From positions 1 through 13,999 of the forward strand of contig MNUP01000019.1 of NCBI GenBank assembly GCA_001871075.1: a stretch of DNA of 13,999 nucleotides, in the 5' to 3' direction. Numbering within the stretch: position 1 is the first letter of the stretch; each line of letters opens with the position of its first letter. The position numbers were made by a program, and so were the translations under genes. The DNA comes from Candidatus Desantisbacteria bacterium CG1_02_49_89 (GTDB lineage Bacteria; Desantisbacteria; UBA1551). Positions 1-13,999 of the stretch are shown in pieces. The notes below the pieces were generated by a model. That model did no database searches and was not told where the DNA came from. It was given only the letters and a program-made list of their open reading frames with translations.

Positions 1-32
1 TAAATTGTAAAAGTCAAATTTTTAAAAGTTTT

Positions 33-74
33 AAAATTTAAAATTAAAAATTTGCAATTTGAGATTTGCAATGT
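33..74. repeat. Degenerate AT-rich heptamer array before the ZIP gene
   Basis: Six consecutive 7-base units can be read: AAAATTT (33-39), AAAATTA (40-46), AAAATTT (47-53), GCAATTT (54-60), GAGATTT (61-67) and GCAATGT (68-74). The array ends three bases before the AAGGAG ribosome binding site at 78-83. Bases 1-32 are similarly A/T-rich but less regular. The period matches arrays in other spacers although the sequence is different. Confidence 0.65.
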
Positions 75-90
75 TTTAAGGAGTAGAAAC

Positions 91-825
91 ATGTTCTGGT
101 GGGCGATAGGCAGCACGATATTAGTAAGCCTGATCTCGCTTGTGGGAGTGTTTACGCTCGCGATAAGCGACAAAGTCCTAAAAAAGCTTGTGTTCCTGCT
201 GATGGGTTTCTCAGCGGGGGCTCTGCTCGGGGGCGCGTTCCTGCACCTGATCCCGGAGGCTGCCGAAAAAGCAGGCGGGATAAATATTTATCTCTGGGTG
301 ATAGTAGGCCTGGTTGCCTTCTCAATCCTTGAAAGATATTTCTACTGGCGCCACTGCCATGAGGGCGTATGCGACGTGCACGCGTTCACCTACCTTAACC
401 TTATCGGTGACGGGTTCCATAACCTGATCGACGGTATGGTCATAGCGGCAAGTTACGCCGCGGGAATTAAAGTGGGGATAATCACGACGATCGCGGTCAT
501 TTCGCACGAGATCCCGCAGGAAATGGGAGATTTCGGTGTGCTTGTATACGGAGGGTTCACAAAAACAAAAGCGCTGTTCTTCAATTTTCTCTCCGCGCTG
601 ACAGCGGTTGCAGGCGCGTTCATAGGGTTCTATTTTTACAGGCATATTGAAGGCTCGGTCCCGGCCCTTCTCGCGTTTACCGCGGGCGGGTTCATATACG
701 TTGCGGCTTCTGACCTTATACCGGAGCTGCAGCACCAGAAGGATACAAAAAGAGGCAACATCGCGTTCGTGTTCTTCCTGGGCGGCCTTGTTTTCATGTG
801 GGCTGCCAGGTTTCTCGGCCATTAA
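91..825 (+). CDS. ZIP-family divalent metal transporter
   Basis: A 244-residue inner-membrane protein of the ZIP (zinc/iron permease) family, which imports Zn(II) or related divalent cations into the cytoplasm. The family signature is clear: HNLIDG at residues 110-115 (helix 4) and HEIPQEMGDF at 139-148 (helix 5), supplying the His, Asp and Glu residues of the binuclear metal site. The chain is almost entirely hydrophobic, consistent with the usual eight helices. A short polar loop before helix 4 carries H88, C89, H90, C94 and H97 and may bind metal. ATG 91 is preferred over the upstream in-frame ATG 52 because AAGGAG (78-83) lies 7 bases before it and the extension runs through repeat DNA. 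The HEIPQEMGDF form resembles LIV-1-like and bacterial ZIP proteins. Which metal is carried cannot be told from sequence. No metal-responsive operator is recognised upstream. Confidence 0.93.
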   Translation: MFWWAIGSTILVSLISLVGVFTLAISDKVLKKLVFLLMGFSAGALLGGAFLHLIPEAAEKAGGINIYLWVIVGLVAFSILERYFYWRHCHEGVCDVHAFTYLNLIGDGFHNLIDGMVIAASYAAGIKVGIITTIAVISHEIPQEMGDFGVLVYGGFTKTKALFFNFLSALTAVAGAFIGFYFYRHIEGSVPALLAFTAGGFIYVAASDLIPELQHQKDTKRGNIAFVFFLGGLVFMWAARFLGH

Positions 826-849
826 ATACAGTTGAACGTCGTAAGTTAT

Positions 850-896
850 AATCCCCCTGCCATCCCCCTTTGGAAAAGGGGGAAAGAGGGGGATTT
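850..896. repeat. Palindromic dispersed element (CCCCC/GGGGG type)
   Basis: An inner hairpin pairs CCCCCTTT (864-871) with AAAGGGGG (875-882) around a 3-base loop. An outer arm AATCCCCC (850-857) matches GGGGGATT (888-895). From memory, this resembles a nested C-tract/G-tract palindrome found between genes in many environmental bacteria. No T-run follows, so a simple intrinsic terminator is unlikely, though the hairpin could stabilise a transcript end. Confidence 0.7.
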
Positions 897-900
897 GAAA

Positions 901-923
901 ACGCACGACGCACGACGCACGAC
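901..923. repeat. Heptamer array ACGCACG x3.3
   Basis: Three exact copies of ACGCACG occur at 901-907, 908-914 and 915-921, followed by a partial unit. The array ends about 8 bases before the GAGGAAG ribosome binding site of the beta-CASP gene. Confidence 0.85.
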
Positions 924-938
924 TAATATAGAGGAAGC

Positions 939-2342
939 ATGAAAGCGACTTTGCAATTCCTGGGCGGGGCAGGCGGGGAAGTCACGGGTTCAATGCACCT
1001 GCTTGAGCTTGGCGGCAAAAAAATACTCATTGACTGCGGTTTCTTCCAGGGCAGAAGGGAAGAGTCCATGAAAAGGAACCGCGTTTTTCCGTTTGACCCC
1101 AGGACAATAGATGCCCTTGTCCTGTCCCACGCCCACATAGACCACTCAGGCAACATACCCAACCTTGTCAAGCAGGGGTTCAGGGGAAATATCTATTCAA
1201 CCGTGGCGACCAGGAACCTGTGCGCGGTGATGCTGAAAGACGCGGCCCACATACAGGAACAGGACTCTGAATACATAAATAAAAAACACCATCTTGAGTA
1301 TATGTCAGCCGTGGAACCGATCTACGGCATTAAAGATGTCGAAGACAGCATGCAGCTTTTTATAGGCATCCCTTATAACAGAAGCATAAACGTGTATGAA
1401 AACCTTACAGTTACTTTCAGCGACGCGGGTCATATACTCGGCGCCGGGTTGTCCGCTTTTGACATAAGGCAGGACAACAGGACCCTGCGCCTGGGCTACA
1501 TCGTGGACCTGGGTAGAAAAAGGCTCCCGATACTGTCAGACCCGGTTGTGATACCCGGCATGGACCACGTGATCATTGAAAGCACTTACGGCGACAAGCT
1601 GCACGATGATATCGGGGACAGCCTGAACGAGCTGCGCGACGCGATAAACCGCACCGCGGGGCGCGGGGGTAAGGTGATTATCCCGGCATTTTCTCTTGAA
1701 AGGACGCAGGAAGTCCTTTTTTTCATACGCAAACTTATAGATGAAAAGCAGATCCCCGCGCTTCCCGTGTACGTGGACAGCCCGCTTGCCGTGAACGTAA
1801 CCGAGGTTTTCAGGTTCCACTCGGAATATTTCGACGAGGAAACAAGGGATATGCTTGCGCGCGGGGAAGACCCGTTCAGCTTTGAAGGCCTGCATTTCGT
1901 GCGCAGCGTGGCCGACTCGAAGGCGATCCAGTTTAACCCAAACCCCATGATAATTATCTCCGCGTCAGGCATGTGCGAAACAGGCAGGATCCTGCACCAT
2001 CTGAAAAATAACGCCGAAGACCCGCGTTCCACTATACTGATCATAAGCTTCATGGCGCAGCACACCCTGGGAAGAAGGATAGTTGAGAGGCAGCCGAGAA
2101 TAAAGATATTCGGAAAAGAATACAGCCTGAAGGCAGAGGTCGTGATCCTTAACACCTTCTCCGCTCACGCTGACCAGAAAGAGCTGATGGAATACGTAAA
2201 CAGCGTCAGGGAAAAAGACCCGCGGTTCTACGTGGTCCACGGCGAAGAGAAGCAGAGCCAGGCCCTGCTTGAAAAGATGATAGGAGCGGGTATTACGAAG
2301 GTTGCGGTCCCGCAGCGCGGCGATAAGGTAGAGCTTGGCTGA
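939..2342 (+). CDS. beta-CASP metallo-beta-lactamase RNase-like protein (YSH1/CPSF-73 type)
   Basis: A 467-residue cytoplasmic protein of the MBL-fold/beta-CASP group that processes or degrades RNA. The first MBL half carries HAHIDH at residues 64-69 (two-zinc motif HxHxDH), preceded by IDCGFFQG at 31-38, with DAGHILGAG as the later His-containing motif. The beta-CASP half carries SASGMCETGRILHHL, SAHADQ (H410) and YVVHGE (H434), the usual motifs of COG1236-type enzymes. Length fits the bacterial and archaeal members without KH domains. GAGG at 931-934 lies 4 bases before ATG 939. It is separated from its neighbours by repeat-rich spacers, so no operon partner is implied. In bacteria such proteins are usually annotated as MBL-fold RNA-processing exonucleases. 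The family is certain; the endo/exo preference and RNA target are not. Confidence 0.93.
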   Translation: MKATLQFLGGAGGEVTGSMHLLELGGKKILIDCGFFQGRREESMKRNRVFPFDPRTIDALVLSHAHIDHSGNIPNLVKQGFRGNIYSTVATRNLCAVMLKDAAHIQEQDSEYINKKHHLEYMSAVEPIYGIKDVEDSMQLFIGIPYNRSINVYENLTVTFSDAGHILGAGLSAFDIRQDNRTLRLGYIVDLGRKRLPILSDPVVIPGMDHVIIESTYGDKLHDDIGDSLNELRDAINRTAGRGGKVIIPAFSLERTQEVLFFIRKLIDEKQIPALPVYVDSPLAVNVTEVFRFHSEYFDEETRDMLARGEDPFSFEGLHFVRSVADSKAIQFNPNPMIIISASGMCETGRILHHLKNNAEDPRSTILIISFMAQHTLGRRIVERQPRIKIFGKEYSLKAEVVILNTFSAHADQKELMEYVNSVREKDPRFYVVHGEEKQSQALLEKMIGAGITKVAVPQRGDKVELG

Positions 2343-2353
2343 ACGCGAAGATT

Positions 2354-2458
2354 GTCGTACGTCGTACGTCTTGCGTCGTGCGCATGAATCTTTTAAACGT
2401 ATGACCTACGACATACGACGGTATTTACGTAAGACGCGCGACGTATGACGCATGACGG
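2354..2458. repeat. Inverted pair of heptamer arrays
   Basis: After the beta-CASP stop codon comes array A: GTCGTAC (2354-2360), GTCGTAC, GTCTTGC, GTCGTGC (ending 2381). Arrays B and C then carry the opposite orientation: CGTATGA, CCTACGA, CATACGA (2398-2418) and CGTAAGA, CGCGCGA, CGTATGA, CGCATGA (2428-2455). GTCGTAC is the reverse complement of GTACGAC, which is a phase of the B/C unit type, so the transcript could fold into a long imperfect hairpin. Array C ends 9 bases before the AGGAGG ribosome binding site of the ThuA-like gene. Confidence 0.85.
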
Positions 2459-2474
2459 CATAACAGGAGGCAAA

Positions 2475-3122
2475 ATGAAAAAGGCGTTGATCGTATGGGG
2501 AGGATGGGACGGGCATGAGCCGAAGCAGTGCGCGGATATATTCGAGCCTTATCTGAAAAGCCAGGGGTATGAAGTTATTGTGTCCAATACCCTGGCCGCA
2601 TACACGGACCAGGAACTGATGAAGTCCCTGAACCTTATCGTGCCGATATGGACAATGAGCTCGGTTACCGCGGATGCCGAGGTTAAACTTCTCCTTGAAA
2701 CAGTTAAAAACGGCGTTGGGCTGGCAGGGTGGCACGGTGGGATGGCTGATTCTTTCCGCATGAACACGGAATACCAGTGGATGGTAGGCGGCCAGTGGGT
2801 CGCGCACCCCGGCGGCCTTGTGGAATATGAAGTGAATATAATTGATCACAATGACCCCATCACAAAAGGCCTGAAAGACTTCAAGATGAAGTCAGAGCAG
2901 TATTACATGCACGTAGACCCCTCGAACGAAGTGCTTGCGACCACCACGTTTTCAGGCCTTGACGCTCCCTGGACAAAGGGATGCGTGATGCCGGCTGTTT
3001 GGAAAAGGATGTGGGGCAAAGGACGGATATTTTATACTTCTCTGGGACACGTTGCGGCGGATTTCAATGTGCCGGAAGCGCTCGAGATAGTTAAGCGCGG
3101 GATGCTCTGGGCGAGCTTGTAA
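2475..3122 (+). CDS. ThuA-like domain protein
   Basis: A 215-residue single-domain protein of the ThuA family, which has a class I glutamine-amidotransferase-like (flavodoxin-type) fold. Recognisable blocks are the opening [24 protein letters not shown] (W86, H87), [31 protein letters not shown] (141-149) and [10 protein letters not shown] (H192). ThuA proteins are tied to trehalose and other sugar use (ThuA/ThuB take part in oxidising disaccharides to 3-keto forms), but the biochemical activity of most members is unknown. No ThuB-type dehydrogenase lies next to it. ATG 2475 is chosen because AGGAGG (2465-2470) sits just before it, whereas the in-frame ATG 2445 falls inside a heptamer array. 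There is no signal peptide from this start, so it should be cytoplasmic. Family assignment is strong; function is inferred only broadly. Confidence 0.88.
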
Positions 3123-3124
3123 AA

Positions 3125-3159
3125 CAGTGGTGAGTGGCCAGTGGTCAGTTGTTAGTGAA
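3125..3159. repeat. Heptamer array CAGTGGT type after the ThuA-like gene
   Basis: Units are CAGTGGT (3125-3131), GAGTGGC, CAGTGGT, CAGTTGT (ending 3152) and TAGTGAA (3153-3159). The array begins two bases after the stop codon. This unit type is not seen elsewhere in the window. Confidence 0.75.
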
Positions 3160-3180
3160 GGAAAACAGCTTTTTTTAACT

Positions 3181-3212
3181 TTGACACGTTGATACGTTGA
3201 TACGTTGACACG
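3181..3212. repeat. Octamer array TTGAYACG x4
   Basis: Four exact-period octamers: TTGACACG, TTGATACG, TTGATACG, TTGACACG (3181-3212). The array is followed by TTTTT and then the GGGAGG ribosome binding site of the LOG-like gene. The same unit family occurs at 6215-6246. Confidence 0.88.
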
Positions 3213-3228
3213 TTTTTGGGAGGTGAGC

Positions 3229-3933
3229 ATGGCTAGGCCGCGTTGCGTTATAAAACACCACGAGGACAGGGAGCTCCTTACTCACGTTAAAAAGAAAACC
3301 CCGGATTTTCCGTACAGGGATTCCTGGAGGACTTTCAGGATTTTGGGCGAATTCGTAGAGGGCTTCGACTCCCTTTACAAAATAGACAAGGGCGTTACGA
3401 TATTCGGCGGCACGCGCGCCCCCAGGACCAGCCCCTACTACAAGGCGGCCGAGAAGGTGGCATACGGGCTTGCAAAGAACGGTTTTGCGGTGATCACAGG
3501 CGGGGGCCCGGGCATCATGGAGGCGGCAAACAAGGGCGCGTATGACGCTGGCGGCATATCGGTTGGGTGCAACATAGAGCTTCCCTGCGAGCAGATCCCC
3601 AACAAATACCAGACCATAAAACTGAATTTCCGCTACTTCTTTGTAAGGAAAATGATGTTCGTGAAATACGCGCGGGCGTTCATAATTTTCCCGGGCGGCC
3701 TGGGTTCAATGGACGAGTTCTTTGAGTCCTTCGTGCTGGCGCAGACAGGGAAAACCCAGCATTTCCCCATAATCCTTTTTGGTTCCGAATACTGGGATGG
3801 CCTGCTCGCGTGGATGCGCAGCAAGATGCTGAAAGAGGGCTATATAGATAAAAAAGACCTTTCTCTGCTGACCGTTACTGACAGCCCCAGGCAATGCGTA
3901 GACATTGTCGTGAGGAAGTCGGCCCGGAAATAA
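3229..3933 (+). CDS. LOG-family (TIGR00730-like) nucleotide phosphoribohydrolase-like protein
   Basis: A 234-residue Rossmann-fold protein of the LOG/'lysine decarboxylase-like' family. Proven members cleave nucleoside 5'-monophosphates to base plus ribose 5-phosphate (cytokinin activation in plants, nucleotide turnover in bacteria). Visible motifs are the nucleotide-binding GGGPGIMEAANKGA (residues 91-104) and PGGLGSMDE (155-163), the family's PGGxGTxxE with Ser160 in place of Thr and catalytic-site Glu163 kept. An N-terminal stretch of about 50 residues precedes the core, matching the longer bacterial subgroup. Despite old annotations, the family does not decarboxylate lysine. GGGAGG (3218-3223) just before ATG 3229 decides the start; an upstream in-frame TTG at 3205 lies in an octamer array. 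No pathway partner is adjacent. Confidence 0.9.
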   Translation: MARPRCVIKHHEDRELLTHVKKKTPDFPYRDSWRTFRILGEFVEGFDSLYKIDKGVTIFGGTRAPRTSPYYKAAEKVAYGLAKNGFAVITGGGPGIMEAANKGAYDAGGISVGCNIELPCEQIPNKYQTIKLNFRYFFVRKMMFVKYARAFIIFPGGLGSMDEFFESFVLAQTGKTQHFPIILFGSEYWDGLLAWMRSKMLKEGYIDKKDLSLLTVTDSPRQCVDIVVRKSARK

Positions 3934-3943
3934 ATACAGTTTA

Positions 3944-3965
3944 TCCCAAAGGGATCCCTTCGGGA
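3944..3965. repeat. 22-base near-perfect palindrome centred on GGATCC
   Basis: The stretch starts TCCCAAAGGGA and ends TCCCTTCGGGA; 20 of 22 bases match its own reverse complement. It lies 11 bases after the LOG-like stop codon. It could form a single 22-base cruciform or two small hairpins. No T-run follows directly. Confidence 0.7.
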
Positions 3966-4034
3966 CAAGTTTACAAGTCAATAAGTTTACAAAGTTTTAT
4001 TTTAACTTTATAAACTCTGTAAACTCTGTAAACC
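3966..4034. repeat. GTTTACAA / TGTAAAC inverted nonamer arrays
   Basis: The left side has two copies of AAGTTTACAA-like sequence. The right side has period-9 units CTTTATAAA, CTCTGTAAA and CTCTGTAAA. The two sides are roughly reverse complements, so a long A/T-rich hairpin is possible. The GTTTACA words recur after htpX at 12680-12712. Confidence 0.65.
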
Positions 4035-4066
4035 AAATTCATTCTTAATTTTTCAGGGAGTTTACT

Positions 4067-6103
4067 ATGCTTAAGCTGGATGCGGAAACCGGAAGACTTT
4101 TTTCAGGCAAACTGGATCTGGAGTTCGCTGACAGGCAGTATTGCCGCGCGATCACGGGCTTTGCCGAGCACAAAAGGATGATCATCAATGCCGGGCTTGC
4201 AAGCAGGAAAATCGTCAACAAAGGCAGCGGCATAACAATAACGGGGATTTTTGAGCACACCATGGTTGAACTGGTGCAGGAATTCAGGCAGAACAACGGT
4301 GTGCTTGAAGAGACAATAACCCTGCGCAACAGGGGTTCAGTGCCGGTGGACCTTGAGAAAGCGGATTTCGGTTTTACCGCAGATCTGGCAAGCAGGCAGG
4401 GCTGGCGCCTGTGCGCGATCCCTTTCAGGGTGCAGCTGGACGGAAGCGCGCATGATTATAGCGGCGAAGCGCTTTCAGCGGGTAAGTTCCGGAACGCCGT
4501 ATACTCTGACACCACCCGGCCTGAGCCGGCGCTGAAAGAACAGGGTATCCTTCGTTCTGAAGCATGGGCATGGGGTCCGGGGGACAAGGGCCTGGTGATC
4601 ATTAAATACAACAACAACGCGTTCGAACTGTCTGTTGCCTGCCCGCAAAAGCCAGGCATTCTACGTTTCGGAGGCGCCGGATTCTGTTTATACGGAGAAC
4701 CGTCAACCTGCAGGCAGATACCCGCTGGCAAAACCATAGTTTTCGGGACCACGTATTACATGGAGTTTGAAGGCGGCCTGGACAAGGCGTTTTATCTATA
4801 CCGCGATTTCCTGGAAGGAAAAGGGCACGGGTTCCCGGAAAACTATGACCCGCCTGTGAACTGGAACGAGCTTTATGACGTGGGCTGGTACCATTCAAAC
4901 ACAGAAGAGCTGAAAAAGCATTACACCCGCGAAGCTCTGCTGAAAGAAGCTCAGAAAGCCAAAGATTGCGGGTGCGAGCTTCTGTACCTGGACCCGGGAT
5001 GGGAAGTTACGGAAGGCACGACCCTGTGGGATGAATCCAGGCTTGGGTCTGTTTCAGAGCTCGTAAAGACCCTGAAGGACAAATTCGGGCTGGGCCTGGG
5101 TTACCGCACCATACTCCGCACCTACAAGGATCTTTGGGACCATAAATATCTGGTAAAGCACTCTTCTGACGCGGTTCCGTCTTCCGTTTCCTTCGGGGGA
5201 ACTCCTATGTGGGAACCCTGCCTGTGCAGCCCGGAATTCTTCAGGGAAAAATTGAAGCGCATACTCGCGATCTCAGGCAAGGGTGTTAAATTCATGATGT
5301 TTGACGAGATGGACTGGAGAGGGCCCTGCCTTGATCCTTCCCACGGACACCCTGTGCCGGCAACGCCGCTTGACCACGCGCTCGCGGTCTACAAACTGTG
5401 CAGTGAAGTCAGGAAAAAATGCCCCGGGCTTGTCATAGAGGCGCACGACCCTGTCTGGCCATGGAGCACCTGCGTGTACGTGCCGCTGTATTTCAGGCAG
5501 GGGTTCGGCAGAAAAGGAAGTTACGACGAGAACTGGGGATTCGAATACATGTGGAACTGCATTGATGACCTGAGAACCGGCAGGGCGCTTGCCCTGTATT
5601 ATTACGCGCTTGGCTGCGGCATACCTTTATACCTGCACATAACCATGGCCGCGGACAACGATACCTGCGTGTTCTTTTGGTGGGCGGCGTCAACCGTAAG
5701 GCACCTCGGCATAGGCGGCAAACAGAGCAACCCGACAGTAGAGGGGGCGGGGAAACTGCCTTCGTTTGACCCCGAGAAGCGGTTTTCCGCGTATAAAGAG
5801 CAGATGAGAATATACAGGAGCCTTAAACCTTATTTTGTCAGGGGAAAATTCTTCGGCATTGACGAAAAGATCCACCTTCACGTGCTTCTGGGCAAAAAAG
5901 GCGGGGTGGTCAGCGTTTTTAATCTCGAAGAAACAGAAAAAGAGATCAGGTTCAGCATACCGCTCGAGCTTCTGAATACGGATTCAGCGCTTGAGGTCCG
6001 GGGCGCCGCGGCGCAGTGGTCGGAAAAAAACGTTGAGCTGAAGCTTAAGCTGGGACCGATGAGCCCCGCTGTCATATGCATCGGCTCCGCGATAAAACCT
6101 TAA
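4067..6103 (+). CDS. GH36-like (clan GH-D) glycoside hydrolase, alpha-galactosidase-like
   Basis: A 678-residue protein read as a retaining glycosidase of the alpha-galactosidase (GH36/clan D) type. Residues 1 to about 250 look like the N-terminal beta-supersandwich domain. A TIM barrel follows: PVNWNELYD corresponds to the GH36 PVxxNSWEA block, and CGCELLYLDPGW (D309) corresponds to the family's GxELFvlDDGW. KFMMFDEMDW (408-417) aligns with the strand bearing the nucleophile, making D413 the likely nucleophile. VIEAHD (457-461) lies further along the barrel. The last 80 or so residues look like a C-terminal beta domain. There is no signal peptide, so it should be cytoplasmic and act on imported oligosaccharides or glycosides. 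AGGGAG (4055-4060) precedes ATG 4067. The normal GH36 nucleophile motif (KWD) and acid/base block are not conserved, so the substrate is uncertain and another clan-D-like family is possible. No sugar transporter is adjacent. Confidence 0.68.
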   Translation: MLKLDAETGRLFSGKLDLEFADRQYCRAITGFAEHKRMIINAGLASRKIVNKGSGITITGIFEHTMVELVQEFRQNNGVLEETITLRNRGSVPVDLEKADFGFTADLASRQGWRLCAIPFRVQLDGSAHDYSGEALSAGKFRNAVYSDTTRPEPALKEQGILRSEAWAWGPGDKGLVIIKYNNNAFELSVACPQKPGILRFGGAGFCLYGEPSTCRQIPAGKTIVFGTTYYMEFEGGLDKAFYLYRDFLEGKGHGFPENYDPPVNWNELYDVGWYHSNTEELKKHYTREALLKEAQKAKDCGCELLYLDPGWEVTEGTTLWDESRLGSVSELVKTLKDKFGLGLGYRTILRTYKDLWDHKYLVKHSSDAVPSSVSFGGTPMWEPCLCSPEFFREKLKRILAISGKGVKFMMFDEMDWRGPCLDPSHGHPVPATPLDHALAVYKLCSEVRKKCPGLVIEAHDPVWPWSTCVYVPLYFRQGFGRKGSYDENWGFEYMWNCIDDLRTGRALALYYYALGCGIPLYLHITMAADNDTCVFFWWAASTVRHLGIGGKQSNPTVEGAGKLPSFDPEKRFSAYKEQMRIYRSLKPYFVRGKFFGIDEKIHLHVLLGKKGGVVSVFNLEETEKEIRFSIPLELLNTDSALEVRGAAAQWSEKNVELKLKLGPMSPAVICIGSAIKP

Positions 6104-6113
6104 ACCTTTTAAC

Positions 6114-6143
6114 CACGAATTTTCACGGATTCCCACGAATTTC
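6114..6143. repeat. Decamer array CACGAATTTT type
   Basis: Three 10-base units: CACGAATTTT (6114-6123), CACGGATTCC (6124-6133) and CACGAATTTC (6134-6143). A related but diverged set of decamers appears at 7041-7080. Confidence 0.75.
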
Positions 6144-6144
6144 T

Positions 6145-6192
6145 GTAACTCAAACCTTCAGGTTTGATATCAGGGCTGAAGCCCTGAGTTAC
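6145..6192. repeat. Three-arm palindromic element (copy 1, complete)
   Basis: The outer stem is GTAAC (6145-6149) with GTTAC (6188-6192). Arm 1 is TCAAACC (6150-6156) with GGTTTGA (6161-6167), loop TTCA. Arm 2 is TCAGGGC (6170-6176) with GCCCTGA (6181-6187), loop TGAA. Together they form a compact three-way junction. Arm 2 and about 25 bases after it recur at 7114-7156. Confidence 0.8.
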
Positions 6193-6214
6193 GATAAAAC
6201 TCCTTGTTGTTGCT

Positions 6215-6246
6215 CTGACACGTTGATACGTTGACACGTTGACACG
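6215..6246. repeat. Octamer array TTGAYACG (second locus)
   Basis: Units are CTGACACG (6215-6222), TTGATACG, TTGACACG and TTGACACG (ending 6246). This is the same family as 3181-3212, again upstream of a start codon, here that of the TatD-like gene. Confidence 0.88.
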
Positions 6247-6278
6247 CTTTTAAATCTATGACTTACGGCGGAATTAAC

Positions 6279-7034: not shown

Positions 7035-7040
7035 AATATT

Positions 7041-7118
7041 ACTTTGACACTGATTTGCACAGATTGCCGCGGATTTTCACATTCAGCTTTCAGCACCTTC
7101 GGGCATTCAGCAATCAGG
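7041..7118. repeat. Decamer array followed by CATTCAG heptamers
   Basis: Four decamers ACTTTGACAC, TGATTTGCAC, AGATTGCCGC, GGATTTTCAC (7041-7080) share CAC/CGC and ATT words with the array at 6114-6143. They are followed by CATTCAG- and CTTTCAG-type heptamers up to 7118, interrupted by a short insert. Confidence 0.6.
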
Positions 7119-7156
7119 GCTGAAGCCCTGAGTTACAATAAAATTCCTTGCCGTTG
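7114..7156. repeat. Three-arm element copy 2 (only one arm kept)
   Basis: TCAGGGC (7114-7120), loop TGAA, GCCCTGA (7125-7131) and GTTAC (7132-7136) repeat the right arm of the element at 6145-6192. The downstream bases to 7156 also match 6193-6212 closely. The left arm and the GTAAC outer strand are missing, so this copy is 5'-truncated or diverged. Confidence 0.8.
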
Positions 7157-7158
7157 AT

Positions 7159-7186
7159 TCATAACTCATAACTCATAATTCATAAT
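7159..7186. repeat. Heptamer array CATAACT/CATAATT
   Basis: Four units in the phase CATAACT, CATAACT, CATAATT, CATAATT run up to the AAAGGA ribosome binding site (7188-7193) of the URO-D-like gene. Confidence 0.85.
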
Positions 7187-7201
7187 TAAAGGAATAACCC
7201 A

Positions 7202-8269: not shown

Positions 8270-8273
8270 ATAA

Positions 8274-8390
8274 CGTTCATCGTGCATCGTTCTTCGTTCA
8301 TCGCTAAAGCTTTAACGAGCAACCAGCAACCAGTAACGAGTAACCGCTCTTGCGATGCACGACCCGCAAGGGCGAAGCACGAAGCACGAG
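8274..8390. repeat. Triple heptamer cluster (CGTTCAT, GAGCAAC, GAAGCAC types)
   Basis: The spacer holds three different period-7 arrays. First: CGTTCAT, CGTGCAT, CGTTCTT, CGTTCAT (8274-8301). Second: GAGCAAC, CAGCAAC, CAGTAAC, GAGTAAC (8317-8344). Third: GATGCAC (8354-8360) through GAAGCAC, GAAGCAC (8374-8387). CGTGCATCG in the first is the reverse complement of CGATGCACG in the third. The last unit ends 6 bases before the AAGGAGG ribosome binding site of the next gene. Confidence 0.88.
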
Positions 8391-8406
8391 ATGAAGGAGG
8401 TAAGGA

Positions 8407-8955
8407 ATGATCACAAAGTCAGAGAGGAAGAAGGCGCAGGACAAGGCGGCGCAGTACCTGAAAAGAGCGGGTATAGTATTAACGCCGAAGGAAAAGAAGA
8501 GCATTGAGGTCGCGGACCTGGGCTTGGGCGATTTCAGGAACACAGGGCTTGAACTGGTTGTTTACGTGAACACTCGAAGATGCTGCGCGAAGGAGCTTAT
8601 CCTGTTCCCGAAGCAGACCTGCCCCGAGCACAGGCACCCCAGGATCAGCAAGGACAACCCCGGCAAGGAAGAGACTTTCCGCTGCAGGTGGGGCAGGATC
8701 TATCTTTATGTGCCGGGCAAAAAAACAAAGAACCCGCACGCCACTCCGCCCAAAGGCACGGAGAAATATTACACTGTATGGCACGAGGTAGTGCTGAACC
8801 CCGGCGACCAGTATACGCTTTCGCCCAACACCCGCCACTGGTTCCAGCCAGGCCCGAAAGGCGCGGTTGTTTCCGAATTCTCTACAGCAAGCGTTGATGA
8901 AAAAGACTGGTTCCCCAATCCCAATATCAACAGGATAACAAAAGTCACGAAATAA
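8407..8955 (+). CDS. D-lyxose isomerase-like cupin
   Basis: A 182-residue single-domain cupin resembling the D-lyxose/D-mannose ketol-isomerase family (Bacillus YdaE-like), which interconverts aldose and ketose sugars using a divalent metal. Visible ligands are H75 and H77 in CPEHRHP, E88 in GKEETF (11 residues after H77, as in the family) and H144 in NTRHWFQPG, the expected 2-His/Glu/His set. CRWGRIYLYVPG and WHEVVLNPGDQYTLSPNTRHW fit cupin motifs 1 and 2. An N-terminal helical stretch (residues 1 to about 30) is lysine-rich and resembles that of the longer family members. AAGGAGG (8394-8400) precedes ATG 8407. It is cytoplasmic by lack of signal. The nearby glycosidase and ThuA-like protein suggest sugar catabolism, but the exact pentose or hexose is inferred only from family. 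Confidence 0.85.
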   Translation: MITKSERKKAQDKAAQYLKRAGIVLTPKEKKSIEVADLGLGDFRNTGLELVVYVNTRRCCAKELILFPKQTCPEHRHPRISKDNPGKEETFRCRWGRIYLYVPGKKTKNPHATPPKGTEKYYTVWHEVVLNPGDQYTLSPNTRHWFQPGPKGAVVSEFSTASVDEKDWFPNPNINRITKVTK

Positions 8956-8960
8956 AATGA

Positions 8961-9055
8961 CGTTCATCGTTCTTCGTTCATCGTCTTAACACATGACCCA
9001 TGACACATGACACATGACTGTTTCTGCGATGCACGATGCACGATGCACGACGGAC
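8961..9055. repeat. Triple heptamer cluster before the radical SAM gene
   Basis: Three period-7 arrays fill the spacer: CGTTCAT, CGTTCTT, CGTTCAT, CGTCTTA (8961-8988); ACACATG, ACCCATG, ACACATG, ACACATG (8989-9016); and GATGCAC x3 plus GACGGAC (9028-9055). The first and last types also frame the previous spacer (8274-8390), again in reverse-complement relation. The last unit ends 3 bases before ATG 9059. Confidence 0.9.
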
Positions 9056-9058
9056 GAA

Positions 9059-10483
9059 ATGAAAGTAACACTAGTTAACACCAACCTGATGAAGCCGCCT
9101 GTGGTGCCGGTCGGCCTTGATTACCTTGCGACTGCCCTCAAGCAGAAAGGGCATGATGTGGGCCTTCTTGACCTGTGCATGGCGGATGACTGGAAAAAGG
9201 CGTGCGACGGATATTTTGAGAAAAATCAGCCTGACGCCATAGGCGTAACTGTCCGCAACACGGATGACTGCTATTTCGCGAGCCGCGATTTTATTATGCC
9301 AGGCATAAAGCGGATCGTGAATTATATCAAGACAAAAAGCCCGGCACCGATGATCGCAGGCGGGGTGGGTTTTTCCCTGATGCCGGAAAAAGCTCTGGAT
9401 CACCTGGACATAAAACTCGGCATAGCGGGCGAGGGCGAGGAGTCTTTGCCAGCTCTTCTTGATGTTCTGGGAAAGACCGACGAATACCGGAAGATCCCGG
9501 GGCTTGTGCGCAAGGTGTCCGGGAACTTCGTCAGGAACCCGCCCAGATACATCGACCTTTCGACCATAAAGCTTTCCGCAAGGGATACAGTTGACAACCT
9601 TTGGTATTTTAACGAAGGCGGGATGGGAGCCGTTGAAACAAAGCGCGGGTGCGACCAGAACTGCATATACTGCGCCGACCCTCTTGCGAAAGGCAGGATA
9701 TGCCGCGCGCGCCCTCCGGAAGACATTGCGGATGAATTTGAGAACCTGCTGAAACTCGGGATAACCCACTTCCATCTCTGCGACAGCGAGTTCAACCTGC
9801 CTTACGAACACGCGGTTGCTGTCAGCAGGGAACTGGCAGACCGGGGACTGGGAGACAGGATCCGATGGTACATTTACGCAAGCCCTGTGCCGTTTGACGT
9901 GAACCTTGCGCGCCTGATGAAAAGCGCGGGGTGCGCGGGAATAAATTTCGGCGTTGACAGCGCGAACTACTCTATGCTCAAGACCCTTGGCAGGAATTTT
10001 ATGCCCTCAGACCTGCTCTACGCGGCGAAGACATGCAGGAAACAGGGCATAGCCGTGATGTTCGACCTCCTTATAGGGGGGCCGGGGGAAACCAGGAAGA
10101 CCGTTAGCGACACGATAAAGTTCGCGTCGGATTGCGATCCTGACAGGATCGGGGTCGCTATGGGGATAAGGGTGTACCCGGGCACGCCTTTCGCTGACTG
10201 GGTGAAAAGCGAAGGCGACAGGAAAAAGCTGCACTGGGGTAAAACAAAGGACAGCGGTTTCTTCGCGCCCGTCTTCTACCTTGAGAGCGATTTCACAAGC
10301 TGCATACAGAACCTGATAGCAGGGGATGAAAGGTTCTTCTTCCCCCACGCCAGGAACAAGAGCTATAACTACAACAACAACAAGGCCCTGGTTGACGCCA
10401 TAAAAGGCGGCGAGCGCGGAGCGTTCTGGGACATAATGAGACGTACCCCTGTGCCGAAGCGCGGCTCGGAAATAGAGTTGTGA
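9059..10483 (+). CDS. B12-binding-domain radical SAM protein
   Basis: A 474-residue protein with an N-terminal cobalamin-binding-type Rossmann domain (residues 1 to about 150; MKVTLVNTNLMKPPVVPVGLDYLATALKQ is typical) and a radical SAM core. The 4Fe-4S/SAM cysteine motif is C198-DQN-C202-IY-C205 (CxxxCxxC), followed by the usual elements: GITHFHLCDSEFN, a GINFGVDSAN stretch and DLLIGGPGET. The DxHxxG cobalamin ligand motif is not seen in the first domain, as in many BchE-like relatives that bind B12 without the histidine or not at all. Such enzymes perform radical methylation, cyclisation or rearrangement; the substrate is unknown. ATG 9059 gives the canonical N terminus; the in-frame ATG 9014 would translate heptamer repeats. 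No good ribosome binding site precedes ATG 9059, only GGACGA. No RiPP or cofactor cluster partner is adjacent. Confidence 0.9.
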   Translation: MKVTLVNTNLMKPPVVPVGLDYLATALKQKGHDVGLLDLCMADDWKKACDGYFEKNQPDAIGVTVRNTDDCYFASRDFIMPGIKRIVNYIKTKSPAPMIAGGVGFSLMPEKALDHLDIKLGIAGEGEESLPALLDVLGKTDEYRKIPGLVRKVSGNFVRNPPRYIDLSTIKLSARDTVDNLWYFNEGGMGAVETKRGCDQNCIYCADPLAKGRICRARPPEDIADEFENLLKLGITHFHLCDSEFNLPYEHAVAVSRELADRGLGDRIRWYIYASPVPFDVNLARLMKSAGCAGINFGVDSANYSMLKTLGRNFMPSDLLYAAKTCRKQGIAVMFDLLIGGPGETRKTVSDTIKFASDCDPDRIGVAMGIRVYPGTPFADWVKSEGDRKKLHWGKTKDSGFFAPVFYLESDFTSCIQNLIAGDERFFFPHARNKSYNYNNNKALVDAIKGGERGAFWDIMRRTPVPKRGSEIEL

Positions 10484-10503
10484 TTATTATTCCTCTTGTT
10501 TCT

Positions 10504-10542
10504 CCTCTCCCCTAAGGGGAGAGGATGCAAGGTGAGGGGGGG
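10504..10542. repeat. CCTCTCCCC/GGGGAGAGG palindromic dispersed element
   Basis: CCTCTCCCC (10504-10512) pairs perfectly with GGGGAGAGG (10516-10524) around TAA. A trailing GGTGAGGGGG follows. From memory, similar sequences are common between genes of many environmental bacteria. Its G-rich tail lies where a ribosome binding site for the dipeptidase gene would be. No T-run follows the stem. Confidence 0.75.
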
Positions 10543-10553
10543 AATGAGTTGTA

Positions 10554-11639
10554 ATGAAAATAAAATATATTTTGTCAGCCTGCGTTCTTTACACGGCAAC
10601 CGCGATGATAAACTTAAACGCCAAGACACTATTTGACGCTGCGGACCTTCACAGCGACGTCCTTTTAAATATCCTGGAGGATCCCGGGTACCTGGATAAG
10701 GATAAACCGGGCCAGCATACAAGTTTCAGGACGATAAAACAGGGGAATTACAGGCTTATCGTTGTGATAGTGTCCGGAGACTTCTTCTTTGACAGGAACA
10801 TGGAAAAGCCGGGCTGGATAAGCCGCAGGCTGTGGAAGGAACTCGGGAAATACAGGCTAAAGAAAAGAGAATTTGCCGGACACTGCATCGATCTTGTTAA
10901 AAAAACATTTAAGGATAAAAAGGATTTTGTGCTGGTGACAGGCCGCAAAGACCTGGATACTGTCGAGAAAGAGAAAAAGACAGGCATACTGCTCGGTGTC
11001 GAGGGAATGCGGGTGGCGGAAAATCCCGGGGACGTAGAGTGGCTTTATGAAAACGGCGTCAGGGTGTTCGGGCTTGTCTGGAACAGCGATAACAAGTTCG
11101 CGCATTCCCACAAAAGCAAATCCGGCCTGACAGAGGAAGGGAAAGAGCTTGTCAGGGCTATCGCAAAGGCAGGCGGGATAATAGACCTGTCGCATGCCTC
11201 GGAAAGGACGGTCCTCGACGCGATAGAAACGGCAGGCAGGGACTGTCCGTTCATGGCAAGCCATTCGGGGGTAAGGCAGATATCAGATGTATCCCGCAAC
11301 CCGTCCGATGAAGCGATAAAAGCGATTGCGGGGACCGGGGGCATAATAGGCGCGACTTTCTACAGGACGCTCATAAAGAACAGGAACAACAAAAGTCCTG
11401 TCTACGCTACAACAGATGACGTGCTGGACACGATTGACTGTATGGCAAAGATGATCCCGATCTCTAATGTGGCGATTGGGACGGATTACGGCTCAATTAT
11501 ACCGCCGAAAGGCCTTGAGAACGCCGGATGCATCCAGAAAATAGGCGCGGGCATGCTTAAAAGAGGGTACACTCAGGAAGAAGCCAACAAGGTTATGGGT
11601 GCAAACGCGCTTAAATTTTTAAGGAAAGCTCTGAAGTAG
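10554..11639 (+). CDS. Exported membrane dipeptidase (peptidase M19, renal dipeptidase-like)
   Basis: A 361-residue zinc dipeptidase-like protein of the M19 family, which hydrolyses dipeptides, including D-amino-acid-containing ones in some bacteria. Residues 1-23 form a signal peptide (KIK, a hydrophobic core, then LNA before KTLF), so it should act outside the inner membrane. Expected metal ligands are visible in order: H33 and D35 (DLHSD), E150 (GVEG), H214 (DLSHAS), H237 (ASHSGVR) and D311 (IGTDYGS). The last block is GTDYGS rather than the more common GSDFDG. An LSAC sequence at residues 7-10 looks like a lipobox but sits too early. ATG 10554 has only the G-rich repeat tail (about 10536-10542) as a possible ribosome binding site, roughly 11 bases upstream. 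The gene stands alone between repeat spacers. Confidence 0.92.
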   Translation: MKIKYILSACVLYTATAMINLNAKTLFDAADLHSDVLLNILEDPGYLDKDKPGQHTSFRTIKQGNYRLIVVIVSGDFFFDRNMEKPGWISRRLWKELGKYRLKKREFAGHCIDLVKKTFKDKKDFVLVTGRKDLDTVEKEKKTGILLGVEGMRVAENPGDVEWLYENGVRVFGLVWNSDNKFAHSHKSKSGLTEEGKELVRAIAKAGGIIDLSHASERTVLDAIETAGRDCPFMASHSGVRQISDVSRNPSDEAIKAIAGTGGIIGATFYRTLIKNRNNKSPVYATTDDVLDTIDCMAKMIPISNVAIGTDYGSIIPPKGLENAGCIQKIGAGMLKRGYTQEEANKVMGANALKFLRKALK

Positions 11640-11651
11640 TGCCTCCGTCCC

Positions 11652-11680
11652 TTGCATAATCTCTTTAAATATGATATAAT
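11652..11680 (+). promoter_or_regulatory. Possible sigma-70-type promoter for the htpX-like gene
   Basis: TTGCAT (11652-11657), a 17-base spacer and a perfect TATAAT (11675-11680) lie in an A/T-rich stretch after the dipeptidase gene. A second TATAAT occurs at 11691-11696. Only 3 of 6 bases match the -35 consensus, so the evidence is the -10 box and spacing. A transcript from here would begin with the large inverted repeat at 11698-11770. Confidence 0.4.
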
Positions 11681-11697
11681 GTATGTTTAGTATAATA

Positions 11698-11770
11698 GTT
11701 TAAAGGTTTCGCGGCTTAAGGGTTTGAAGGTTTTAAAACCTCGAAACCGCTAAACCCGAAACCTCGAAAC
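11698..11770. repeat. Long imperfect inverted repeat of GGTTT/AAACC words
   Basis: The left arm (about 11698-11734) is rich in GGTTT words and the right arm (about 11735-11770) in AAACC words. They meet at GGTTTTAAAACC. Reverse-complementing the right arm gives a close match to the left over about 36 bases. Each arm is itself built of 7-9 base units such as CGAAACC and CGAAACCT. It lies in the leader of the htpX-like gene. Confidence 0.75.
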
Positions 11771-11780
11771 AAATAGTTCA

Positions 11781-11808
11781 CGTACGACGTAAGACGCTCG
11801 ACGACCGA
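11781..11808. repeat. Heptamer array CGTACGA type before the htpX-like gene
   Basis: Units are CGTACGA, CGTAAGA, CGCTCGA and CGACCGA (11781-11808), directly followed by CGGAGG, which contains the ribosome binding site. Closely related to the array at 2428-2455. Confidence 0.88.
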
Positions 11809-11819
11809 CGGAGGTTTAC

Positions 11820-12677
11820 ATGAGCAATATCTGGAAAACAGGCATACTGATGGCAGCGCTGACAGCGCTGATGATCCTGATCGGAAAGGTTTTAGGCGGG
11901 ACTGACGGGATGTTCTTCGCGTTCGCGTTCGCTCTTCTGATTAATTTCGCCTCGTACTGGTTCTCTGATAAGATCATCCTTTCGATATACAGGGCAAAAG
12001 AAGTGGATGCCGTTAAATCACCCCAGCTTTACAGCACTGTCCAGCACCTTGCGAACACCATGCAGCTCCCGATGCCAAAGGTATATATAGTCCCGAGCCC
12101 TTCGCCCAACGCCTTTGCAACAGGCCGGGACCCAAAGCACTCCGCGGTCGCTGTTACAGAAGGGAACTTGCAGCTTTTAAACAGGGATGAGCTTGAAGCT
12201 GTTATGGCCCACGAAATGACGCACATAAAGAACCGCGATACCCTTATATCCACGGTTGCGGCTTCGCTTGCAGGCGCGGTCACAATGCTTGCAAGGTTCG
12301 CGGGGATGTCCGCGTTTTTCGGGGGGAGCAGGGATGATGACAGGGGCGGGGGAGGGCTTGCGATCCTGATATACCTGCTTGCGCCTCTTGCAGCGCTTCT
12401 TATCCAGCTTGCGATCTCCAGGTCAAGGGAATTCATGGCTGATGAAGGCAGCGGCAGGGTGACCAGAAGGCCTGCAAGCCTTGCGAGCGCTTTGCAGAAA
12501 CTGGTTGCCTCAGTAAAACAGGCGCCTATGGCGGCAGAACCAGCTACGGCCCACCTTTTTATAGTCAGCCCGTTTGCCGGAACCGGCTTTATACAGCTGT
12601 TCAGCACCCACCCGCCGGTCGAGCAGAGGGTTGAGAAACTGCAGGAGCTGGACAAACTTATAAGGGCAGGAAAGTAA
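11820..12677 (+). CDS. htpX: HtpX-like M48 membrane zinc metalloprotease
   Basis: A 285-residue inner-membrane protease of the M48B family that takes part in quality control of membrane proteins with its zinc site on the cytoplasmic side. Two N-terminal transmembrane segments lie at about residues 5-25 and 30-52. The zinc motif HEMTH is at 131-135, with the third ligand E204 in SREFMAD. Two more hydrophobic segments lie between them (about 143-163 and 180-198), separated by a glycine/aspartate-rich loop at 165-178. The C-terminal STHPPVEQRV block is typical of HtpX. Length matches the family. GGAGG (11810-11814) precedes ATG 11820. A possible promoter and a long hairpin lie in its leader. In other bacteria htpX is often induced by envelope or heat stress; nothing in the sequence shows which regulator is used here. 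Confidence 0.95.
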   Translation: MSNIWKTGILMAALTALMILIGKVLGGTDGMFFAFAFALLINFASYWFSDKIILSIYRAKEVDAVKSPQLYSTVQHLANTMQLPMPKVYIVPSPSPNAFATGRDPKHSAVAVTEGNLQLLNRDELEAVMAHEMTHIKNRDTLISTVAASLAGAVTMLARFAGMSAFFGGSRDDDRGGGGLAILIYLLAPLAALLIQLAISRSREFMADEGSGRVTRRPASLASALQKLVASVKQAPMAAEPATAHLFIVSPFAGTGFIQLFSTHPPVEQRVEKLQELDKLIRAGK

Positions 12678-12679
12678 AA

Positions 12680-12712
12680 CTCAGTTTACAGAGTTTATAA
12701 AGTTTACAAGTA
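12680..12712. repeat. Nonamer array CAGTTTACA type
   Basis: Period-9 units CAGTTTACA, GAGTTTATA and AAGTTTACA follow the htpX-like stop codon closely. The same words occur at 3966-4034. Confidence 0.75.
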
Positions 12713-12718
12713 GCGCTG

Positions 12719-12832
12719 TGCCCGCCAATTGGTTTGGCGGGGTGCGACGTTTCGTCGCACGACGTAGGGGCGGGCTTGCCCGCACCGTCTGTCATTGCGA
12801 CACGCCAATATTCGTGGCGGGGAAGCAATCTC
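12719..12832. repeat. Composite palindrome cluster before the SDR gene
   Basis: Several short palindromes are packed together: CGCCAA/TTGGCG, GTGCGACG (12742-12749) with CGTCGCAC (12753-12760) around TTT, GCGGGC (12770-12775) with GCCCGC (12778-12783), and CGCCA/TGGCG. A GTCATTGCGA (12791-12800) to GAAGCAATC element surrounds the last pair. The opening GCCCGCCA..TCGCAC part and the GTCATTGCGA part both have relatives after the SDR gene (13683-13890). Confidence 0.75.
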
Positions 12833-12877
12833 GTGTGGAAGGTCTATTTCGAAAACAGATCCAAAAGGAACTCCAAT

Positions 12878-13675
12878 ATGAATATAAAAGGGAAGGTAGT
12901 TATCGTAACAGGCGGAAGCCGCGGCATAGGCAGGGGGATCTCCCTTAGCCTGGCCAAAGAAGGCGCGAAGGTGGCTGTTAATTATCACAGGCACCCGGAA
13001 AACGCGAAGGATACCGCGAAGAAGATCGAATCCCTTGGCGGGGAAGCTATGATCGCCAGCGCTGACGTGACAAGCTCTTCCCAGGTCAAACACATGGTAG
13101 CTTCTGTTATTGACAAATGGGGAAGGATAGACGTTTTGGTGAACAATGCCGGGCACATCGCAGGCGGGGGATTATTAGATATCACGGAAGAAGAGTGGGA
13201 TAAAATGATGGCGGTCCACCTGAAAGGCCCTTTCCTGTGCTGCAAGGAAGTCGTGCCGCACATGATAAAACAAAGGAAAGATGAAAAGGGCTGGGCAGGG
13301 AAGATCATCAACATCAGCTCGGTCGGAGGGGTGGCAGGCCAGTCAGTCATGCATTACTGCACGGCAAAAGGAGGGCTGATCACCCTCACGCAGTCCCTTG
13401 CCAGGCATCTGGCAAAATTCAACATAATGGTGAACGTCATCGCTCCGGGGCCTACGGTCTCAGACCTTGGGAGTTCCGAGCCCAACACAGAGGAGAAACA
13501 CGAGCAGAAGAGGAAATGGGCAAGGGAAAGCGGAAAATTCCCGCTGGGCAGGATCGGGGAGCCGGAAGACATAGCCAACGCGGTATTATTCCTTATTTCA
13601 AACGACTACATTACCGGGGAGACCATCAGCATCTCCGGCGGCTGGGGCACGCTTTACAACGAGCTTCTTATGTAG
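12878..13675 (+). CDS. Short-chain dehydrogenase/reductase (FabG-like SDR)
   Basis: A 265-residue classical SDR oxidoreductase using NAD(P)H. Motifs: the cofactor-binding TGGSRGIG (residues 11-18), NNAG, the catalytic SS pair (S147 is 13 residues before the Tyr) and Y160-CTA-K164. The C-terminal GRIGEPEDIANAVLFLISNDYITGETISISGGWG is typical of FabG-like and sugar or polyol dehydrogenases. R15 and the NYHR stretch after the second strand leave NADPH or NADH open. AAAGGA (12864-12869) precedes ATG 12878; the in-frame ATG 12734 is rejected because it would translate the palindrome cluster. The protein is cytoplasmic. No fatty-acid synthesis genes are adjacent, so an alcohol or sugar substrate is as likely as a 3-oxoacyl-ACP. 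Related repeats lie on both sides of the gene. Confidence 0.92.
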   Translation: MNIKGKVVIVTGGSRGIGRGISLSLAKEGAKVAVNYHRHPENAKDTAKKIESLGGEAMIASADVTSSSQVKHMVASVIDKWGRIDVLVNNAGHIAGGGLLDITEEEWDKMMAVHLKGPFLCCKEVVPHMIKQRKDEKGWAGKIINISSVGGVAGQSVMHYCTAKGGLITLTQSLARHLAKFNIMVNVIAPGPTVSDLGSSEPNTEEKHEQKRKWARESGKFPLGRIGEPEDIANAVLFLISNDYITGETISISGGWGTLYNELLM

Positions 13676-13680
13676 CGGTG

Positions 13681-13768
13681 CCTGCCCGCCAGTTTTTGTG
13701 GAGGGCGATTTATCGCACATAAAAATAGGGACACACGGTAGGTTAATACCCCCCCAATAATTTGCAAC
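13681..13768. other. Repeat-derived spacer without a gene
   Basis: The segment opens with a diverged copy of the GCCCGCCA...TCGCAC palindrome also found at 12719-12760, including GCGA-TTTA-TCGC. It continues with an A-rich stretch, a GGGACACAC word and a C-run. No reading frame of interest is seen. It may be the end of a degraded mobile element, but that is a guess. Confidence 0.5.
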
Positions 13769-13938: not shown

Positions 13939-13999
13939 TGTGGTGTCTCTAACAGATCTTTACATTTGGGCTGTCATTGCGAGGAGTGTTAACGACGAA
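13935..13999. mobile_element. Second tandem copy of the MITE-like element, cut by the window end
   Basis: These 65 bases match 13769-13833 with a single difference (A to G at the sixth base). The copy is offset by 166 bases and shares the CTAG at 13935-13938 with the right end of copy 1. The rest lies beyond the window. Confidence 0.8.

Follow-up and report, generated by a model that had tools for sequence, protein, structure and literature searches.

The short tandem arrays that lie between the genes of a 13,999-nt stretch of Candidatus Desantisbacteria bacterium CG1_02_49_89 (contig MNUP01000019.1; hereafter the window) are probably the arms of discrete, dispersed imperfect palindromes, several families of which appear to have spread into tight gene junctions. 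The window, on contig C89 of a 2.48 Mb draft genome, carries 12 genes, all on the + strand. Neither of the two processes proposed in a first-pass annotation of the same DNA, continual slippage and a factor that reads repeat period, fits the data as well as dispersal of palindrome families does. As we picture it, an element would measure ~95–115 nt: short-period tandem units, four as a rule, lead into an A/T-rich loop that in many cases contains CAAGGA...TCCTTG, and the units return inverted on the far side. Single-family precedents exist in the GGGAATC pairs of Xanthomonas and the heptads of the Nostoc trnL P6b; what is new here is the number of unrelated families with one anatomy, the saturation of the spacers, the discrete ends, and the junctions that are short in a relative.

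Short-period arrays and their inverted pairing

Approximately 1.36 Mb of the 2.48 Mb genome (55%) was read. Arrays were located with Tandem Repeats Finder (TRF; score threshold 30), and self-similarity at each lag was expressed as a z-score relative to dinucleotide shuffles, for spacers and coding DNA separately. One sample was biased, its contigs having been picked for matches, and contigs free of this selection supplied the lag and array rates; an unselected sample (contigs 1–20, 220 kb, 109 spacers) was taken regardless of arrays.

The pooled spacers of the window were self-similar at lag 7 (z = 9.9), lag 14 (z = 4.8) and lag 8 (z = 2.9), with no significant excess at lags 9 and 10, and the coding DNA of the window held the codon-period signal only, with no lag-7 excess. 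The unselected sample gave z = 13.5, 7.8 and 5.4 at lags 7, 14 and 21, and z = 6.4 and 4.0 at lags 8 and 10, while a sample of ~1 Mb gave z = 27.6, 11.9, 8.4, 9.8, 25.3 and 13.0 at lags 7, 8, 9, 10, 14 and 21, respectively. Arrays of period 7–16 occurred in 188 of 317 (59%) co-directional spacers of 60–600 nt, compared to a mean of 5.7 (1.8%) in shuffles. The central observation of the first-pass annotation, that short-period arrays of changing sequence lie between genes, thus survives comparison with coding DNA and shuffles: the arrays are real, far above chance and, with the excess persisting in the rest of the genome, genome-wide. The lag-7 excess was not found in G001, the single relative compared, which belongs to the same order only.

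TRF recovered nearly all of the arrays that had been reported for the window, namely those of period 7 (30–72, 901–923, 2354–2379 with 2397–2457, 3125–3157, 7157–7187, 8274–8303/8314–8345/8373–8389 and 8961–8984/8989–9018/9027–9057), period 8 (3181–3214 and 6216–6246), period 9 (4011–4033 and 12683–12709) and period 10 (6113–6141). Two others, at 11781–11808 and 7041–7080, fell below the threshold, the spacer of the former still giving a lag-7 z of 4.4. The statement that almost every spacer is built in this way is a fair one; the exceptions, 10484–10553 and 13676–13999, hold other palindromic repeats and no array.

What had been missed is that the arrays within a spacer are paired as inverted copies. 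In gene orientation, one array lies past the stop codon and its reverse complement before the next ribosome-binding site. To quantify this pairing, the first 45 nt of each spacer were compared with the reverse complement of its last 45 nt, the ribosome-binding site being excluded. An inverted score of ≥12 was reached by 26.8% of 366 spacers; the corresponding figures were 3.3% when ends were paired with those of other spacers, 3.0% when direct matches were scored and 0.7% after shuffling of the ends. The excess was repeated on contigs not picked for matches (21.1% vs 2.7%). When arms were grouped into families by Louvain clustering, with own-spacer pairs unused, the same family stood at both ends in 108 of 252 spacers (expected 25.6; maximum 44 in 10,000 permutations). 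The elements start a median of 1.5–6 nt past the stop codon and end 18–25 nt ahead of the start, and their removal leaves 20–37 nt of spacer. Their polarity is fixed by side: sense CATAATT arrays lie a median of 85 nt past the stop and 34 nt ahead of the start, and antisense arrays 5 nt past the stop. The two flanks of one gene, compared with each other, showed no excess of matches (3.3% vs 4.4%), and the repeating unit is therefore the spacer element rather than a gene cassette; gene cassettes with inverted ends were rejected on this ground.

Adjacent genes lie on the same strand in 936 of 966 pairs of the genome sample and in 133 of 144 pairs in G001, compared to ~75% in two unrelated genomes processed with the same gene caller. 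Such extreme co-orientation combined with long spacers is unusual.

Dispersed families and the CATAATT element

At least ten families (an approximate count) share this anatomy, with unrelated unit sequences and periods of 7, 8, 9 and 10, and one of ~22–24. Arrays in the genome sample numbered 21 for CATAATT, 16 for TTGACACG, 22 for AAACTNTGT-type nonamers, 10 for CGTTCAT and 9 for ACGACGT, and as few as 25 13-mers reached 341 of 597 spacers. Unit sequence is well conserved inside a family, and whole compound elements recur: window positions 8956–9058 have an 83.5% identical copy on contig C99 (L045:2500–2610), and positions 2343–2474 a 76.9% identical copy on contig C7 (L015:10631–10758), with a 7-nt indel between the copies. 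The first-pass annotation had held that the units differ between spacers and are not copies of one dispersed repeat, a claim that fails because the arrays fall into a limited set of dispersed families and because entire compound elements are found again elsewhere.

The CATAATT family, the best sampled of all, has sharp ends, AATTATG...CATAATT, and is present in the 1.36 Mb read in 28 copies of 92–114 nt with unrelated flanks. Its core comprises CAAGGA, an A/T-rich loop and TCCTTG, and four units were counted in 31 of 43 arms. The two arms of one spacer resemble each other less than do arms taken from different spacers of the family (CATAATT, P = 0.00015; over 55 spacers, 19.3 vs 22.1), the outcome to be anticipated if a polar imperfect palindrome had been inserted in either orientation. 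In the GATTACNGTGATT family, the majority state of the A/G centre base in one arm was the reverse of that in the other arm in 9/9 palindromes. Orientation fitting gave an energy of 2122, compared to 1222 ± 122 for random, with 6 vs 11 copies. These data support, as the simplest reading, a CATAATT element that is an imperfect palindrome with unlike arms and occurs in both orientations. Perfect palindromes are unstable in bacteria, and their avoidance may add to the unlikeness of the arms. Unequal arms are likewise preferred in dimers of repetitive extragenic palindromic (REP) sequences (PMC3733652). Some copies contain nested small palindromes (L041:9682, L045:4501).

Possible origins of the elements

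Gene order provides a comparison of long and short junctions. Among 24 gene adjacencies conserved with G001, the spacer is ≥84 nt here in 15, and in 8 of these 15 the G001 junction is <40 nt, with own/G001 spacers of 106/0, 120/2, 276/3, 181/−4, 84/6, 114/12, 142/33 and 89/37 nt. The residual 20–37 nt are close to the 18-nt median of short spacers in this genome and in G001. The comparison suggests a route from ~20-nt to ~120-nt junctions with gene order kept, and the heptamer excess would here be the conspicuous portion of palindromes as long as the spacer, which seemingly invaded tight gene junctions.

Under the dispersal reading, the families would spread as miniature non-autonomous elements, with insertions tolerated between a stop codon and the following ribosome-binding site and no host function required. 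Because the elements are palindromic and lack a target duplication, a single-stranded, hairpin-recognising copying step, of the kind used by REP doublets (REPINs) with REP-associated tyrosine transposases (RAYTs) or by IS200/IS605, is the most natural guess. Unit number could have been changed, and arms swapped, at a later stage by slippage and recombination between copies.

The genome contains ten matches to Y1 transposases. Two of these, close together on contig C23 (L146, L147), are RAYTs that score above the curated cut-off of NF047646 and are flanked by arrays of a GTAACTCA...TGAGTTAC repeat. The same repeat occurs in the window at 6145–6192 and 7112–7138, and part of the spacer content is therefore an ordinary REPIN system. 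As mobiliser of the tandem-arm families, the RAYTs were rejected, since the repeat that flanks them is a different one (GTAACTCA-REP). At L142, L143 and L145, inverted copies of sequences like AATAGGGACAGGCACTATTTTT stand on either side of other Y1 genes, and a AATAGGGACAC stretch at 13709–13730 of the window resembles that sequence.

Compared to established classes, the tandem-arm elements share with REPINs an inverted doublet of related sequences that can be drawn as a hairpin, as seen in the inverted matches of own ends. They do not have 20–40-nt palindromic halves tagged GTAG/CGTC; each arm is instead a tandem array that terminates in AATTATG or another sequence, and no common tag was present in the alignment of the CATAATT family or at its ends. 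A RAYT flanked by cognate repeats was not found for these families at the eight Y1 loci checked, out of ten. The target-site duplication expected of a miniature inverted-repeat transposable element (MITE) of a DDE transposon was absent at the 28 CATAATT elements, where 2–9-nt duplications were not above chance. No IntI integrase exceeded the cut-off and the flanks of genes do not match, as an attC cassette array would demand, and an integron was rejected. Two ~330-aa tyrosine recombinases on contigs C83 and C110 of G000 resemble the integron integrase model with scores under the cut-off and are most likely ordinary recombinases. The arrays do show the features of short tandemly repeated repetitive (STRR) sequences and long simple sequence repeats (LSSRs), with head-to-tail units of 5–11 nt, heptamers most frequent, in intergenic position. 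A blastn search of two spacers against plasmids gave no matches.

Several points weigh against the spread of mobile palindromes. The other seven G001 junctions measure 58–120 nt, several visibly with repeats of G001's own, and not all eight long junctions here hold a complete palindrome of a single family, several consisting of mixed arms or other palindromes. The junctions were compared with those of one relative at the level of the order rather than the strain, and the difference may reflect loss in G001 instead of gain here. Arms of two different families are found in 144 of 252 spacers, which a simple insertion model would not predict without recombination. Tandem-arm families flanked the Y1 transposase genes at none of 8 loci checked out of 10. 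Finally, the gene calls come from a simple home-made script applied to a draft assembly, and the Louvain procedure merged subfamilies, which makes the family count approximate.

The best of the alternatives, although an unlikely one in our assessment, is that slippage continually makes heptad-to-decamer repeats, with template switching at quasipalindromes copying the inverted arms and no mobility involved. All lags from 7 to 10 are raised, unit number changes and a 7-nt indel separates two copies, and 12 of 289 other genomes have CATAATT arrays that lack the same core. In many bacteria, moreover, no long-unit repeat is as common as the heptamer, and the heptamer excess in bacterial spacers, known since Mrazek 2007, has been attributed to polymerase slippage, according to the accounts of that work given in PMC4679880 and PMC4692102. 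This explanation is countered by cores, loops and sharp ends that are common to different spacers, and by a unit number that is near constant at four. Template switching further predicts that arms within a spacer are more alike, the opposite of what was observed, and was for this reason rejected as the source of the arms. Slippage, as proposed in the first-pass annotation, has left some trace (arms of 2–5 units, the 7-nt indel), yet by itself fails to account for the loops, flanking cores, polarity, approximately four units and sharp ends.

That the arrays are RNA elements, such as terminators or processing or stability hairpins of polycistronic mRNA, selected at junctions, appears improbable. 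Their position directly past stop codons of co-directional genes is what such elements would show, and the spacers form more stable folds than shuffles do (mean z = −2.5). After composition control, however, folding is slightly stronger in the antisense than in the sense strand, by 1.27 ± 0.28 kcal/mol, and A.C mismatches of the sense strand show no avoidance compared to G.T (89 vs 73). Terminator-like sites numbered 19, compared to 17.0 ± 3.9 in shuffles, promoter-like sites were likewise not in excess, no Rfam match was obtained, and many spacers lack a matching second arm. An RNA hairpin under selection was rejected, as the sense strand is not favoured and terminators and promoters show no excess; in our view the data do not speak for a function as RNA. 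A DNA-binding architectural or regulatory factor that reads the period, with selection keeping the period and not the sequence, would accommodate unrelated units of period 7–10 at equivalent positions, but the period varies (7, 8, 9, 10, ~22–24), sequence within a family is well conserved, no candidate protein was identified, and nothing found points to the factor that had been suggested, which we regard as very improbable indeed.

The families of this genome have counterparts elsewhere. Of 289 other genomes, 12 contain CATAATT triples, compared to 3 for the reversed control; for CACGAATTNN triples the count is 15 of 279, compared to 1 for the control. At 4 of 7 foreign loci read by eye (L192, L195, L197, L198), a CACGAAT array had an inverted partner within ~170 nt, and genome G030 holds decamer palindromes of this kind. 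A strict decamer-palindrome pattern run on 280 genomes matched one genome and missed the own genome, and is thus too strict to gauge spread. In G222 and G265, which carry many CATAATT arrays, lag 7 is in excess and spacer-spanning pairs are not clearly so, on few spacers. A tentative extension of these findings is that tandem-arm palindromes are a widespread, unrecognised form of miniature mobile DNA whose enzyme reads architecture (a hairpin with a regularly interrupted stem of period 7 to 10) and not sequence. With such an enzyme, many unrelated families could live side by side in one genome, and the occurrence of the CATAATT and CACGAATTNN families in distant bacteria would be accounted for. 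Should dispersal of palindromes hold elsewhere, miniature mobile DNA would make up much of the unexplained repeats of 5–11 nt in bacteria, and the dominance of heptamers, a long-standing question, could be tested by way of element ends, empty sites and a mobiliser.

Known systems each share part of this anatomy. Cyanobacterial STRRs are arrays of few unit types, unlike the dispersed palindromes with sharp ends found here. Enterobacterial repetitive intergenic consensus (ERIC) sequences are imperfect palindromes of ~100–130 nt that lie in transcribed spacers in both orientations, with no known transposase of their own; they resemble the present elements in size, position and orientation, and differ in forming one family without tandem-unit arms, compared to many families with tandem arms. 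The GGGAATC repeats of Xanthomonas are dispersed intergenic heptamer arrays, mostly of four units, at an average of 28 nt from the upstream open reading frame and mostly between co-directional genes, with 70 of 186 forming convergent inverted pairs (PMC4692102). The likeness extends to unit number, partial inverted pairing and gene orientation, whereas Xanthomonas has a single G-rich unit read as a G-quadruplex, and here approximately ten or more unrelated units occupy more than half of the spacers. In the P6b element of the Nostoc trnL intron, degenerate heptanucleotide repeats of variable copy number pair with each other in a hairpin, as here, at one locus rather than as discrete dispersed palindromes with sharp ends (PMC3488679). 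TAACTGA repeats are intergenic heptamer direct repeats of Beggiatoaceae, Cyanobacteria and Bacteroidetes with no known mobiliser (MacGregor 2015, PMC4679880); they are similarly found in distant phyla, and are distinguished by one unit, a position near start codons and almost no inversion (one indirect repeat reported). Finally, REPs and REPINs are short extragenic palindromes, often in inverted doublets near the upstream stop codon and with unequal arms preferred (PMC3116915, PMC3733652), all of which recalls the elements described here, but a REP arm is a single 20–40-nt hairpin with a GTAG/CGTC tag, in contrast to untagged tandem arrays with no linked RAYT.

Features along the window

Inverted pairing is clearest in the window at 2–67, 3969–4034, 8274–8395, 8961–9057 and 11698–11770. 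The first is an A/T-rich palindrome of period 7 (TTTAAAA/AATTTGC; TRF period 7) with arms at 2–25 and 44–67, a 24-nt inverted repeat (75%) and a DNA fold z of −2.2. The palindrome at 3969–4034 has nonamer arms (AGTTTACAAAG.../...CTCTGTAAAC; TRF periods 8 and 9), its right end belongs to arm family 8, and positions 3960–4040 fold with z = −3.0; beside its arm, the inverted-repeat search returned a small nested palindrome, TTATCCCAAAGGGATCCCTTCGGGACAA (3941–3968). Two compound palindromes follow. At 8274–8395, outer arms at 8274–8303 (CGTTCAT) and 8351–8395 (GCGATGCACGA...GAAGCACGA) enclose an inner array at 8314–8345 (AACCAGC; TRF period 7), with a lag-7 z of 7.8, a DNA fold z of −2.6 and both ends in arm family 4. 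At 8961–9057, the outer arms (8961–8984, CGTTCAT; 9027–9057, CGATGCA) enclose an array at 8989–9018 (ACACATG), with a lag-7 z of 8.1, a fold z of −2.5 and the dispersed copy on C99. A further compound palindrome, at 2350–2457, comprises a left arm (GTCGTACGTC...), an inner array (2397–2423) and a right arm (2427–2457; ACGTAAGACG...), with TRF periods 7 and 14, a lag-7 z of 5.3 and the dispersed copy on C7. The palindrome at 11698–11770 is near-continuous, of period 7–8 (GTTTAAAGGTTTCGCGG.../...CCGAAACCTCGAAAC; inverted repeat, TRF period 8), positions 11690–11819 folding with z = −2.7, and is followed by a right arm of degenerate ACGTACGACG heptads (11781–11815, + strand; arm family 4).

In other spacers, arms of two families are combined, in some cases with an intervening REP (6104–6278 and 7035–7201). 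In the former, a left arm of AACCACGAATTTTCACGGATTCCCACGAATTT decamers (6111–6143, + strand; TRF period 10), whose decamer triple is also present in 15 of 279 other bacterial genomes, precedes a REPIN-type doublet, GTAACTCAAACC..GGTTTGATATCAGGGCTGAAGCCCTGAGTTAC (6145–6192), identified by its fold and by the RAYT-flanking repeat of C23, and a half-core TCCTTGTTGTTG with an octad right arm, CTCTGACACGTTGATACG... (6199–6246, + strand; TRF and spacer listing). The latter contains a left arm of weak TTTGACACTGATTTGCACAGATTGCCGCGGATT decamers (7041–7080, + strand; seen by eye, with a TRF score under 30), one half of the REP that is linked to the RAYTs (CAGGGCTGAAGCCCTGAGTTACAA; 7112–7138, + strand), recognised by its match to the RAYT-flanking repeat, and a half-core TCCTTGCCGTTG with a right arm ATTCATAACTCATAACTCATAATTCATAATT of the CATAATT family (7144–7187, + strand; TRF), for which the genome holds 137 pattern matches with ≤1 mismatch. 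A further mixed spacer has a left arm of CAGTGGT heptads 2 nt past the stop codon (3125–3157, + strand; TRF period 7) and, ahead of the next start, an unrelated right arm of TTGACACG octads (3181–3214, + strand; TRF period 8), the family of which recurs at other spacers. A left arm of AGTTTACAG/AGTTTATAA nonamers lies at 12683–12709 (+ strand; TRF period 9, arm family 8).

The right-hand arm of CGACGCA heptads at 901–923 (+ strand; TRF period 7, 100%) has near-identical 22–26-nt matches elsewhere in the genome, and both ends of its spacer were assigned to arm family 4. Nested in the spacer 826–938 is a CCCCCT...AGGGGG palindrome with no tandem array (850–895; inverted-repeat search, fold z = −6.1), and a CTCTCCCC..GGGGAGAG palindrome at 10500–10540 likewise has no tandem arms; both are presumably of a kind that occurs in many unrelated genomes. 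At the end of the window, positions 13769–13999 hold a ~160-nt near-direct repeat of TAGTATGGTGTCTCTAACAGATCTTTACATTTGGGCTGTCATTGCGAGG and an inverted GTCATTGCGAG...CTCGCAATGAC element, and the contig stops inside this repeat, which probably marks an assembly break.

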